DNA of 64,000 nt. Source: Leadbettera azotonutricia ZAS-9 (lineage in GTDB: Bacteria; Spirochaetota; Spirochaetia; Treponematales; Breznakiellaceae). A model generated the notes under the pieces. That model did no database searches, was not told the origin of the DNA, and saw only the letters and a list, made by a program, of their open reading frames with translations. The stretch is taken from the NCBI RefSeq assembly GCF_000214355.1, contig NC_015577.1, forward strand, positions 3,029,389 to 3,093,388, read 5' to 3'. Position numbers and translations under genes: made by a program. Shown here in pieces: positions 43,826 through 48,470 of this stretch. The first letter of the stretch is position 1; every line of letters begins with the position of its first letter.

Positions 43826-45784
43826 TCATTTTCCTGTTGACCTGAGTTTTGCAAACATGTAACGGGAGTTCGTCCAGTTTGGCACAGGATCGGTATAAGG
43901 ATCGTCTATACTCGGATAACCTGTCCAATATGTATCATCCATTACGGTGAACACGTTGTAAGAGCACACTGCGATTTCAAACATCTCGTCTACGGCAAGT
44001 TTTATCCATTCCTTGCCATATTCAACAACCTGGGGATCATCCATGTCGAGTTTCTGACAAGCTTCGATGATTTCGTCCATTCTCTTGTTCTTCCACCGGC
44101 TGACATTGCGGGCGGCATTTTCACCAATGCCCCTATACTGATTGGAATGGAATGAGTCAAGGAAGAAGGACAGGTCAGGATGGCCGCCCCATGTTTCAAT
44201 GTTCCAGTAGAACTCGCCGTCAAAATCACCCGTGCCTGCCAGAGTACCAAAGTCACTACGTACATCGAGGGTGATATCAATACCAAATTCTTTCCAGCAT
44301 TCAACAACCATTGCAGCGGCGCGGTTCTGGCTCGGTTCGTTATCGGTCTGGCCCATGAATACCATCTTGAAGGGTTTACCATCGTTGAATTCCCATACGC
44401 CCCGGGAATTCTTGCGAAGTCCTGCTTTCTGCATAAGCTTTGCGGCGGCATTAACATCATACTTCCACCAGCCTTCGCCCATGTAGCGTTTGATCGCCGT
44501 AGGATCGGTCGGAACTATATCGCCTAAATCGTCCCTGGCTTTTGCAGCAATCTCTACGGCTGCATTGGAATTATAAGGCTTGAAGGTCGTGCCATCTCCG
44601 AGATCGAGGGTATAATCAGAGAGCCACTGTTGTAATGGGGTATGATAATATTCAGGGTACATACCGGTAGGCGGTACAGGGATCGGAGAGATCGTCATGG
44701 CGCCGCGGTAAGAGGCAATTGCAAGCCGGTTAATGTCAAGGGCCAAAGCAAGGGCCCAACGGACATCTTTATTATTAAGACCGGGCTTCTCAAGATTGAG
44801 AATACAGGCAACAAGTGTCGGATCCGGATGCCCCCAGGGGAAACCGGGGAACCATGTCTTGAAAGATTTGTTTGCTTTCGTCAGCCTGATAACGCCTTCA
44901 ACCGCCATATCGTGAATCACGTCAAGCTGATGGGCTTGCGCGCTCATAACTTTGACATCGCTGGTACCACCGTTAATATACATTGCATACTTCGGCGCAG
45001 CGCCTACATCCCCCATGCGCGCCAAAGTAGTCCGCTGGTAGTCAGGACGTTTTTCCCACAAGTACCAGTTGCCCTGGGGATCGAAATCTTTAAGCGTATA
45101 CGGGCCCAGAGTTACAGGGGGATTAAATTTATAGGTAGTGACATCTTCAACTTTTTCGAAGATATGCTTAGGCATCATAAAACATGCATTCCAGCGCACA
45201 AGAAAGTTTGCATGGAAGCGTGAATTCGGCTGTTTAAGAAATATCTTTACTTCAAAGTCACTGATCTTTTGAATACGATCCACATAGGCGTTGAAGCGGC
45301 TGGTATAGTCCATACCCGGATTTTTCATCTGGATTTCAATCGTATAAATCAGATCATCGGCGGTAAACTGAACACCGTCGCTCCAATAAATACCTTCCCG
45401 AAGTTTAATCGTCATCTCGGTAAAATCTTTGTTGTAAATAGGATGTTCTGAGGCAAGAGCATTTTCCCATACACCGTCAATACCGGCATCCGGATCTATA
45501 AACCAAAGGGAATCAAGGCCGAGCTGCTGCAGGCCGCCCATAAAACTGGTGTTCCAGCCATTCCAGCGGTTAAAGTAATCCGGGGGATTTGCCCGTCCGC
45601 CCGGATTTTCCAGAATGATTGTTTCATTGCGCGGGACATTGGCGCCTTCAATCATCTGAACGTTGGCAGAACTTGCCGTTCCTCCGGCGGCTCCATCCGC
45701 CTTTTTTTGACAGCCTGTCAGCGCCAGAGCCGTAACCAACAGTACGGTCAGCACAGGAAACAGGATGCTTTTTAGTTTTTTCAT
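43826..45784 (-). CDS. Extracellular solute-binding lipoprotein (family 5)
   Basis: 652 residues, peptide/nickel/oligosaccharide binding (SBP_bac_5). Signal peptide with lipobox LTGC (Cys25), then the family-5 region IKLREGIYWSDGVQFTADDLIYTIE. It is longer than typical dipeptide-binding proteins (about 500-550), like forms that bind oligosaccharides. AGGAGG 5 nt before the ATG. Strong own promoter with an upstream palindrome. Confidence 0.92.
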   Translation of the reverse strand: MKKLKSILFPVLTVLLVTALALTGCQKKADGAAGGTASSANVQMIEGANVPRNETIILENPGGRANPPDYFNRWNGWNTSFMGGLQQLGLDSLWFIDPDAGIDGVWENALASEHPIYNKDFTEMTIKLREGIYWSDGVQFTADDLIYTIEIQMKNPGMDYTSRFNAYVDRIQKISDFEVKIFLKQPNSRFHANFLVRWNACFMMPKHIFEKVEDVTTYKFNPPVTLGPYTLKDFDPQGNWYLWEKRPDYQRTTLARMGDVGAAPKYAMYINGGTSDVKVMSAQAHQLDVIHDMAVEGVIRLTKANKSFKTWFPGFPWGHPDPTLVACILNLEKPGLNNKDVRWALALALDINRLAIASYRGAMTISPIPVPPTGMYPEYYHTPLQQWLSDYTLDLGDGTTFKPYNSNAAVEIAAKARDDLGDIVPTDPTAIKRYMGEGWWKYDVNAAAKLMQKAGLRKNSRGVWEFNDGKPFKMVFMGQTDNEPSQNRAAAMVVECWKEFGIDITLDVRSDFGTLAGTGDFDGEFYWNIETWGGHPDLSFFLDSFHSNQYRGIGENAARNVSRWKNKRMDEIIEACQKLDMDDPQVVEYGKEWIKLAVDEMFEIAVCSYNVFTVMDDTYWTGYPSIDDPYTDPVPNWTNSRYMFAKLRSTGK

Positions 45785-45830: not shown

Positions 45831-45859
45831 ATTATCACCTGGTTTTTATAGCCTGTCAA
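45831..45859 (-). promoter_or_regulatory. Promoter of the ABC transporter-GH51 operon
   Basis: Minus-strand TTGACA (45854-45859), exactly 17 bp, GATAAT (45831-45836). The leader of about 40 nt carries AGGAGG. Confidence 0.75.
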
Positions 45860-45872
45860 TAAAAATAATATA

Positions 45873-45889
45873 TATCAATAATATTGATA
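45873..45889 (-). promoter_or_regulatory. 17-bp palindrome upstream of the binding-protein promoter
   Basis: TATCAATA-A-TATTGATA, perfect 8-bp arms around one base, 13 bp upstream of the -35 box. This places its centre at about -57, a usual activator position. A related site has the same spacing at the GH51 gene (47458-47474). Confidence 0.7.
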
Positions 45890-45915
45890 AGTTAGATTTT
45901 GGACAACGCAAAACC

Positions 45916-47409
45916 TTATTTGGCAAATTTTATGACATTCACCGAGTGTGGCGGCAATTTAATGCTATCCGGTGCCTTATAGCCCGCTTTTGTAGGCATC
46001 AAGGGCACTGCGTCATCATGGCCTGCATCATTATACGATTCGGTGCTCGTTCCCGACAGGGTATGGATGGAATACCCCGATGGGGAAGGAGAACTGCCCC
46101 AATCAATGGTAAAATCCTGGGCCTTGGCGGGGTCTTTATTGATCGCCGCCAAAACGACATTACCTTGAGCGTCCAGTGTGGCAAGCAGATCCAGGGCAGG
46201 GGTTTCGGTAGCTTTGCCCTGTTTGTCGGTAAGGGAAAGCTTTTGGCCTGCTTCTGCATAGGTGTCCAGGACAGTATCGCCCAGCTCATTCACATACATG
46301 TCAAACACATGGTAGGTGGGGCGAAGCACTATCCCCTTTGGATAGGTATAAATGCAGCCCCGGGTGTTTACCACAGGCGCATAATTTGCCATGCCCACAA
46401 TATCGCAATTCCTGTTGACCATGCTGAGGAAACAGGCAGTGAACACCGCATCGGCCATGGTGTAGCGCTGGTTTTCATCGTTAAGGTCCCGGGGTTTGAT
46501 GTATTCATCGAGACTAAGGCCTGCATCCACATTTGGGTGGTACCAACCCCGGAGGTTCCACTCGTCAAAGGCGATGCGTATGCGATTCCCAAAATCCATG
46601 GCGGCCAAAAGCCCCCGTACCTTGGCAACCTGGCTGTCCAGGGTGTTTGTGTAAACCATGGACTGCTCATAATTAGCATAATCATTGGTTTGGTTGATCC
46701 CATCCCAATAGCCGTGCAGGGAGATCCATGAAAGGTTTTTGCCGCTCCCCTTTAACAGATTTATATTCCAATCAAGATCTGCAAGGGCGGCGGCTGAAAG
46801 CTCTATGGACGGATCAACCCGCTTCATCATTTTTGCAGATTCTGTTACCAGACGGCCCCATTCCTCAGCCGATTTCGCCCCCATTTCCCAGGAACCATAG
46901 TTCTCATTCCCTATGCTCCAGTACTTAACCTTAAAGGGATCTTTATGGCCGTTATCAGCCCGCAGCTTTGCCCAGGGGCCTTCGTTCGGCAGATTGCAGT
47001 ATTCCACCCAATCGCTCATTTCTTCGGCACTACCGGTACCCGCATTGGTGCAGATATAAGGCGCGCAGCCCACCTTGCGGCAGAAGGCGATGTATTCGTC
47101 AGTGCCAAAGGTATTGGGCTCTTCCACACGCCAGGCTTTGTCAAAATGGGGGCGCCTTTCCTTGCCTACCCCGTCTTTCCAGTGGGAAGCAGACACATAA
47201 CAGCCCCCCGGCCAGCGAAGCACTGGGGTTTTGATACGCTGCATGGCCTTGATTACATCGATCCTGAAGCCTTCGGCATCGGACAGCGGGTTCCCGGGAT
47301 CATAAATGCCGCCATAAATCTGGCGGTGAAAATGCTCGATAAAGTGGCCGTAGATCATTGGGTCCCGTTTTCCAACAGTCCGGCTGGGATCAATGTGAAG
47401 CAGTACCAT
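45916..47409 (-). CDS. GH51 alpha-L-arabinofuranosidase (third)
   Basis: 497 residues. [43 protein letters not shown], acid/base Glu in WSIGNENYGSW and nucleophile Glu in IAFDEWNLRGWY. No signal peptide, cytoplasmic. There is only one possible start, ATG 47409: an in-frame stop lies shortly upstream and the protein begins as family members do. A TTGACA-17-GATACT promoter ends just 6 nt before this ATG, so the mRNA must be leaderless or nearly so. Confidence 0.93.
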   Translation of the reverse strand: MVLLHIDPSRTVGKRDPMIYGHFIEHFHRQIYGGIYDPGNPLSDAEGFRIDVIKAMQRIKTPVLRWPGGCYVSASHWKDGVGKERRPHFDKAWRVEEPNTFGTDEYIAFCRKVGCAPYICTNAGTGSAEEMSDWVEYCNLPNEGPWAKLRADNGHKDPFKVKYWSIGNENYGSWEMGAKSAEEWGRLVTESAKMMKRVDPSIELSAAALADLDWNINLLKGSGKNLSWISLHGYWDGINQTNDYANYEQSMVYTNTLDSQVAKVRGLLAAMDFGNRIRIAFDEWNLRGWYHPNVDAGLSLDEYIKPRDLNDENQRYTMADAVFTACFLSMVNRNCDIVGMANYAPVVNTRGCIYTYPKGIVLRPTYHVFDMYVNELGDTVLDTYAEAGQKLSLTDKQGKATETPALDLLATLDAQGNVVLAAINKDPAKAQDFTIDWGSSPSPSGYSIHTLSGTSTESYNDAGHDDAVPLMPTKAGYKAPDSIKLPPHSVNVIKFAK

Positions 47410-47415
47410 AAAAAT

Positions 47416-47444
47416 AGTATCACTGGGATTTATTTATCTGTCAA
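47416..47444 (-). promoter_or_regulatory. Promoter of the third GH51 gene, leaderless type
   Basis: Minus-strand TTGACA (47439-47444), 17 bp, GATACT (47416-47421), then ATTTTT and the ATG. There is no ribosome-binding site in the six bases. Confidence 0.75.
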
Positions 47445-47457
47445 GAAAAATGTTGTT

Positions 47458-47474
47458 TATCAAATATTATGATA
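47458..47474 (-). promoter_or_regulatory. 17-bp imperfect palindrome upstream of the GH51 promoter
   Basis: TATCAAATATTATGATA (plus strand), identical at 13 of 17 positions to the site at 45873-45889, including TATCAA and TTGATA/TGATA ends, and also 13 bp upstream of its -35. Confidence 0.65.
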
Positions 47475-47486
47475 TATAATTCTTTC

Positions 47487-48434
47487 TTAGGATTTTTCGC
47501 CGGCATAAAGCTTCAGAATAATATCCTGATCGTAGTCACCGAAGCCTTTGCCGAAAATGTTGATGCCCCCCGCGTGCTTGGCCCGCGCGGAAATGCCTAT
47601 GCGTACCTTCACCGAATGATGGTCTGCTATATGAAGGTCATCAAGAGTAATAGTTGATACCTGAAGTCGGTCAATAAAGGTCCCTTCATTGGTCACCTCC
47701 CAGGTGGTAAGAAGCCCGTACTGGGAACCTTCAAGCTTCCAGAACGAGGGGGTATACTTCCCTCTGCGGTCACCGAAATCGCCCGGGGATGTCCATGTAC
47801 CGATGAACATCTCGTTGATCCAAACCGAAATATCCGAAGGCCACTTCTTATTGGTGCCTGGCACCTCGCTGGACATCTCCATGGAAAGCTCAATGCGCTT
47901 GAGAGATTTTTTGCCTGAAGAGAAGGTGTTGTTGGGAAACTTGTATTCCACATAACCTTTCTCGAACCAGACCAGAGCAGCCTTAGCCCGGTCGGGGGAA
48001 AAGAAGGTGGCGGGTACATCAAGGTAGCCGATTATTCCATCCCTGCTGCAAAGCCCGCAGGGAGCGGACACCTCGTAGGAGGTAAACAGACCCACAGGCA
48101 TTTCGACCTCGATGGCTTCCGCATCATTCTGGGGAGCTGCGCTGGGGTTAAAGTTAATGAGAAATTCTTTATACCGTGAACTGCAGATCTTTTGCCCGCC
48201 CTTAACACCATTTGCAGTATGGCTGTCTATGAGGCCCGCATCCTCAAGAATGAGGACAGAGGTAGTTGCGGTTGATTGGGGGATAGCAAGCCTGCGGGCA
48301 ATTTCGGTGATATTGAGTTCCTGGTTCTGGAGAAGCTCCAGTATGCGCACCCTCACCTCCGAGGCAAGGGCTTTGAGGGCCTTGGTATCGCGGGATGAAT
48401 CAATGACAAGGGCCTGCTGTCCGGCTTTTCGCAT
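47487..48434 (-). CDS. ArsR-type transcriptional regulator with C-terminal sensor domain
   Basis: 315 residues. Winged-helix N terminus ALKALASEVRVRILELLQ and ITEIARRLAIPQSTATTSVLILEDAGLI (recognition helix), followed by a long beta-rich C-terminal domain (about 110-315; Cys pair in PCGLC, many Trp, jelly-roll-like), which probably binds a sugar signal. It precedes the arabinan genes on the same strand and is the natural candidate to read the 17-bp palindromes. The start at ATG 48434 is fixed by its promoter, because the longer frame begins inside the -35 box. Confidence 0.85.
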   Translation of the reverse strand: MRKAGQQALVIDSSRDTKALKALASEVRVRILELLQNQELNITEIARRLAIPQSTATTSVLILEDAGLIDSHTANGVKGGQKICSSRYKEFLINFNPSAAPQNDAEAIEVEMPVGLFTSYEVSAPCGLCSRDGIIGYLDVPATFFSPDRAKAALVWFEKGYVEYKFPNNTFSSGKKSLKRIELSMEMSSEVPGTNKKWPSDISVWINEMFIGTWTSPGDFGDRRGKYTPSFWKLEGSQYGLLTTWEVTNEGTFIDRLQVSTITLDDLHIADHHSVKVRIGISARAKHAGGINIFGKGFGDYDQDIILKLYAGEKS

Positions 48435-48440
48435 TTTTCC

Positions 48441-48470
48441 AGTATGTTGGGCAGGGGGGAAATTTGTCAA
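48441..48470 (-). promoter_or_regulatory. Promoter of the ArsR-type regulator, leaderless type
   Basis: Minus-strand TTGACA (48465-48470), 18 bp, CATACT (48441-48446), 6 nt (GGAAAA), ATG. Transcription should start at or next to the A of ATG. Confidence 0.7.

Follow-up and report, generated by a model that had tools for sequence, protein, structure and literature searches.

Palindromes at a fixed distance from two sugar-gene promoters of Leadbettera azotonutricia as putative operators of an ArsR-type regulator with a predicted CBM-like domain

In Leadbettera azotonutricia ZAS-9, the promoter of a GH51-type alpha-L-arabinofuranosidase gene and that of a neighbouring transporter operon carry similar palindromes at exactly the same distance, which raises the question of which protein reads them and whether it activates or represses transcription from there. 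The window analysed is a stretch of 64,000 nucleotides (contig NC_015577.1, positions 3,029,389 to 3,093,388), and the features concerned are collected in Table 1. Both promoters lie on the minus strand, with the order palindrome, 13 bp, TTGACA, 17 bp and -10 box. The core of operator 1, TATCAATAATATTGATA, has perfect arms of 8 bp, that of operator 2, TATCAAATATTATGATA, is paired at 6 of 8 arm positions, and the two are identical at 13 of 17 positions. All these elements, from the palindrome positions and their degree of identity to the gaps, the TTGACA boxes, the 17-bp spacers and the GATAAT and GATACT hexamers, had been described in a first-pass annotation of the window and were confirmed. 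Operator 1 scored 28.5 and operator 2 27.3, against 27–37 across the 16 seed sites. In the 3,855,671-bp source genome, TATCA-N7-TGATA occurs at 8 places, compared with 3 for the reversed control pattern. Palindromes followed by TTGACA at 0–30 bp are limited, over the whole genome, to the two sites of the window, and a relaxed pattern of 20 positions, tolerating as many as 3 mismatches, returned the same two sites only.

Table 1. Coordinates, within the window, of the genes, putative operators and promoter elements considered here
Feature	Position	Strand	Basis
ArsR-type regulator, 315 aa, likely reader of the operators	47487..48434	-	Pfam HTH_5, E 2e-8
Operator 2, 25-bp element before the GH51 promoter	47454..47478 (17-bp core 47458-47474)	-	palindrome by inspection
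GH51 promoter, -35 box TTGACA	47439..47444	-	
GH51 promoter, -10 box GATACT	47416..47421	-	predicted; ATG 6 nt further on
GH51-type alpha-L-arabinofuranosidase, target gene	45916..47409	-	Pfam Alpha-L-AF_C, E 9e-28
Operator 1, 25-bp element before the SBP operon promoter	45869..45893 (17-bp core 45873-45889)	-	palindrome by inspection
SBP operon promoter, -35 box TTGACA	45854..45859	-	
SBP operon promoter, -10 box GATAAT	45831..45836	-	
Oligopeptide-type solute-binding lipoprotein (SBP_bac_5), heads the target transporter operon	43826..45784	-	Pfam SBP_bac_5, E 2e-41

When upstream regions were compared, sites and exact spacing were found to be conserved in related genomes, before unrelated genes. 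Alignment of 26 places gave the module TATATATCAAN5TTGATATATA, 13 bp, TTGACA, 16–18 bp and a -10 box, in which conservation of the operator extends beyond the 17-bp core and also takes in the sequence of the gap, about TATATTATTTTT. Twenty-four of these places are loci of treponemes whose regulators, where tested, are at least 67% identical to that of the window. The 13-bp gap is constant in the aligned modules, with a spacer of 16–18 bp between the -35 and -10 boxes and a widely variable distance from the -10 box to the start codon; the modules were, however, gathered on the condition of a 13-bp gap and are not mutually independent, and therefore only unbiased scans speak for the spacing. In such a scan of 200 genomes of the family, the exact palindrome followed by TTGACA at gaps of 0–30 bp gave 46 matches over the 31 gaps, 16 of them at gap 13 and 4 at gap 14, while the 30 gaps besides 13 averaged 1.0 match each; the corresponding binomial p of about 5e-13 is too small a figure, because related genomes are not independent. 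Scanning for the palindrome alone, near regulators at least 67% identical, placed TTGACA at 13 bp from nearly all strong palindromes, and at 24 bp (13 + 11, about one helical turn more) in one lineage. Further modules emerged from a family-wide scan with one mismatch allowed, including those of three genomes (G137, G104 and G075) of the genus with the most similar regulators. In L045 and L046 a single operon is preceded by two tandem modules.

Some individual loci deserve comment. L022 was kept among the 26 aligned rows despite a second, better promoter with the palindrome at 17 bp, and its gap-13 match may be due to chance, while L049 is ambiguous as a gap-13 module, a better palindrome overlying its -35 box. 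The gap-14 matches in three genomes of genus g11 (TATCAATTTTAATGATATCC-) had no obvious target gene. On the GH51 side of L022, L026 and L027, where the regulators are 54–56% identical, the palindrome stands 17 bp before TTGACA. At L010:2860 and L038:3696 the same promoter is found with a decayed palindrome, the T-tract, TTGACA and GATACT being retained, which is a natural case for loss of control by the regulator. The T-tract was also considered as a mark of regulation in itself, an idea weakened by its presence at the palindrome-free promoters L151 and L163.

The first genes after the modules are not all homologous and include those of an oligopeptide-type solute-binding protein, several SBP_bac_1/8 lipoproteins and GH51, as well as that of a protein of 562 aa that matches no Pfam family. 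GH10, GH43 and further GH51 genes are among those linked to modules, and the window itself contains two GH51-type genes. The promoters had initially been termed arabinan promoters, and arabinan remains allowed; nevertheless, since the linked GH10, GH43 and GH51 genes also allow arabinoxylan oligosaccharides, the label is too narrow. The linked genes fit arabinoxylan or arabinan oligosaccharides as the likely substrates.

The gene adjoining operator 2 encodes a protein composed of a winged helix at about residues 12–93 and a predicted beta-sandwich at about 107–310. Its HTH_5 match of 34.3 bits, against a cut-off of 22, identifies an ArsR-type winged helix, and the NCBIfam metalloregulator model NF033788 was not passed (44.5 bits, cut-off 55); it is therefore filed as an ArsR-type domain and not as a metalloregulator. 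The AlphaFold2 model has a mean pLDDT of 90.7. Residues 107–310, which the first-pass annotation had taken for a beta-rich sugar-sensing domain, have no Pfam match; in the predicted model they resemble carbohydrate-binding modules, with VIA Z scores of 10.2 for CBM6, 9.9 for CBM36 and 9.5 for CBM35, over alignments of 116–132 residues with 8–15% identity, and Foldseek matched them to CBM36 with xylotriose at E 8e-5. The domain is thus predicted, with high confidence, to be a CBM6/35/36-like beta-sandwich, differing from those modules in being fused to a DNA-binding domain, and fold and gene context would fit the sensing of a sugar. Many aromatic and acidic residues of the regulator are invariant. 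Orthologues occur in many treponemes at 67–83% identity, and homologues at 54–59% in other spirochaetes and at 33–50% elsewhere, chiefly in Firmicutes. In this full-length family of Spirochaetota and Firmicutes, often encoded beside hemicellulose genes, the ArsR-type head is combined with the CBM-like domain. In four genomes of Firmicutes type (G201, G228, G272 and G425) there are 5–7 family copies per genome, some adjoining GH51 genes, and the family therefore seems to be a large, little-studied group of sugar regulators. The source genome also holds a paralogue at 38% identity (L173, G000:C1:3226232-3227110), with no matching palindrome in the stretch directly upstream of it.

ArsR proteins are classically metal- and redox-responsive repressors. 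The winged-helix DNA-binding domain is shared with the repressors CzrA, CadC and SmtB of the ArsR/SmtB group (VIA Z up to 11.6, the value for CzrA over 78 residues), whereas the extra CBM-like C-terminal domain of about 200 residues, the sugar-gene context and target operators lying upstream of the -35 box set the treponeme regulator apart from them. HlyU of Vibrio has a similar ArsR-type domain (phmmer E 2e-4) and is an ArsR-family positive regulator, best described as displacing H-NS (PMC10509353), but it is devoid of the CBM-like domain predicted in the treponeme protein. Another close comparison is ArbA of Caldicellulosiruptor, an ArsR-family regulator of abfA and predicted repressor, presented as the first member of the ArsR family with a part in carbohydrate use (PMC8579813). 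In both systems an ArsR-family regulator is associated with an arabinofuranosidase gene; nevertheless, the sites described for ArbA overlap promoter elements or fall within the 5' UTR (PMC8579813), whereas both sites of the window stand further upstream, at 13 bp from the -35 box. Four full-length homologues of the regulator (L123–L126) share 37–38% identity with it, and two of these, L125 and L126, with a divergent GH51 gene, are probably ArbA itself. The palindrome beside L123, L124 and L126 is CTTGTAC-like, in contrast with the treponeme operator ATATCAN7TGATAT, and a dyad scan of the Firmicutes homologues gave no common palindrome except the Caldicellulosiruptor-like CTTGTACATATACAAG. Precedents exist separately, HlyU for positive regulation within the ArsR family and ArbA for a sugar regulator of that family. 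In the open-licence papers searched, no work on this regulator in treponemes was found, a search for ArsR-family proteins as class I activators gave only a Zur paper, and no instance was found of an ArsR head combined with both a CBM-like sensor and a fixed upstream operator.

As to the protein that reads the palindromes, 150 genomes were searched for both module and regulator, and exact gap-13 modules were present in 10 of the 22 that have a close orthologue of the regulator, as against none of the 128 that lack one. In addition, 10 of 12 homologues at 54–59% identity carry TATCA-N7/8-TGATA at most 70 bp upstream of their own ATG; among 121 other genes 5 do so, and one of them is itself a family regulator. 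In most of these homologues TGATA leads straight into a -10 (TGATATAAT, TGATATACT), a repressor position from which, judging by the sequence, the bound protein should repress. The co-occurrence and the palindromes at the homologues' own starts therefore make the regulator family the likely reader, as had been suggested at the outset for the gene next door, and it very probably does read them; that the palindromes are putative operators of the adjoining ArsR-type regulator, with its CBM-like sensor domain, is well supported by these comparisons. Most close orthologues, including the regulator of the window, have no palindrome at their own start, and some palindrome sites lie on contigs other than that of the regulator gene, as might be expected if another transcription factor read the palindromes and the adjoining regulator were a bystander; given the co-occurrence of exact modules with the orthologue and the palindromes at the starts of homologous regulators, such an arrangement is improbable. 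Still harder to credit is that the palindromes arose by chance or as copied DNA, without a regulatory role. AT-rich palindromes do arise easily next to good promoters, and there are the eight core matches in the genome, but the peak of spacing at 13 bp, the invariance of this gap beside a variable core spacer and the conservation of modules over many genera before unrelated genes all argue strongly against it.

If the regulator is the reader, its mode of action has to be considered. Activation of the targets, already suggested by the first-pass annotation, together with an ancestral self-repression is favoured, with an even chance of being correct. According to this proposal, a regulator dimer would bind at about -57 and touch RNA polymerase, most likely through the C-terminal domain of the alpha subunit, across the conserved T-rich stretch of 13 bp; sugar bound in the C-terminal domain would then switch on the uptake and cleavage of arabinose-containing oligosaccharides. 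In related species, a palindrome over the regulator's own -10 would repress the regulator gene, and the family would therefore probably combine self-repression with activation of targets. The more specific statement, that an ArsR-type regulator with a CBM-derived sensor is a class-I-like activator from a fixed site at -57 and that its relatives self-repress over the -10, falls a little short of an even chance and is put forward tentatively. Activation is made plausible by the fixed distance upstream of the -35 box, by the helical-turn variant and by the contrast with the relatives' self-repression sites. As regards the helical phase expected for class I, gaps of 13 bp and, in one lineage, 24 bp were found, together with 17 bp in the group of L022, L026 and L027; the helical-turn variant was found in one lineage only.

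The main alternative, which is quite possible though somewhat against the balance of probability, is that the same regulator represses, the dimer on the strong upstream site aiding the binding of a second dimer to a weak site over the -35 box, 19 bp further on, or, in a variant, contacting polymerase and blocking it, with sugar releasing the dimers. The -35 boxes of the target promoters are perfect consensus, and TTGACA-17-GATACT has the same hexamers as pL, a strong promoter of phage lambda; an activator is therefore not obviously needed. Moreover, a weak copy of the operator, TA[TA]TA-N7-TGACA, overlies the -35 box: TTGACA equals the half-site TTGATA at 5 of 6 positions, TA[TA]TA is correctly placed before it, and L049 (TATCAAATAATTTGACA) and L171 (TATCAATTTTTATTGACA) have good versions of both halves. 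The homologues' palindromes on their own -10, a similar palindrome downstream of the GH51 -10 in L029 and the predicted repressor role of ArbA, a probable relative (PMC8579813), point in the same direction. Nevertheless, the real half-site has an invariant C (26 of 26) where 22 of 26 weak copies have T, and the T-tract within the weak copy shows higher conservation than does the interior of the real operator. Furthermore, in the treponeme modules the strong site never lies on the promoter itself, and one lineage keeps it a helical turn further off, which is more in keeping with activation of the targets. The module thus bears on whether an ArsR-type protein can activate through direct contact with RNA polymerase; if true, a fold of metal sensors would have become an oligosaccharide-responsive dual switch in spirochaetes. 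An operator at a fixed distance also amounts to a precise prediction of how these treponemes control oligosaccharide uptake, and the operator model permits regulon prediction in uncultured species.

Finally, some observations concern transcript ends. The palindrome 12 bp past the regulator's stop codon was considered as a terminator, a reading rejected because the site consists almost entirely of A and T and because the same palindrome precedes divergent SBP genes in L013 and L039. A promoter-like TTGACA-18-CATACT stands directly before the ATG of the window regulator. The -10-like hexamers GATACT and CATACT lie just 6 nt before the ATGs of the GH51 and regulator genes (47407-47421 and 48432-48446), and the two mRNAs may therefore be leaderless; the SBP gene, by contrast, has an AGGAGG leader.
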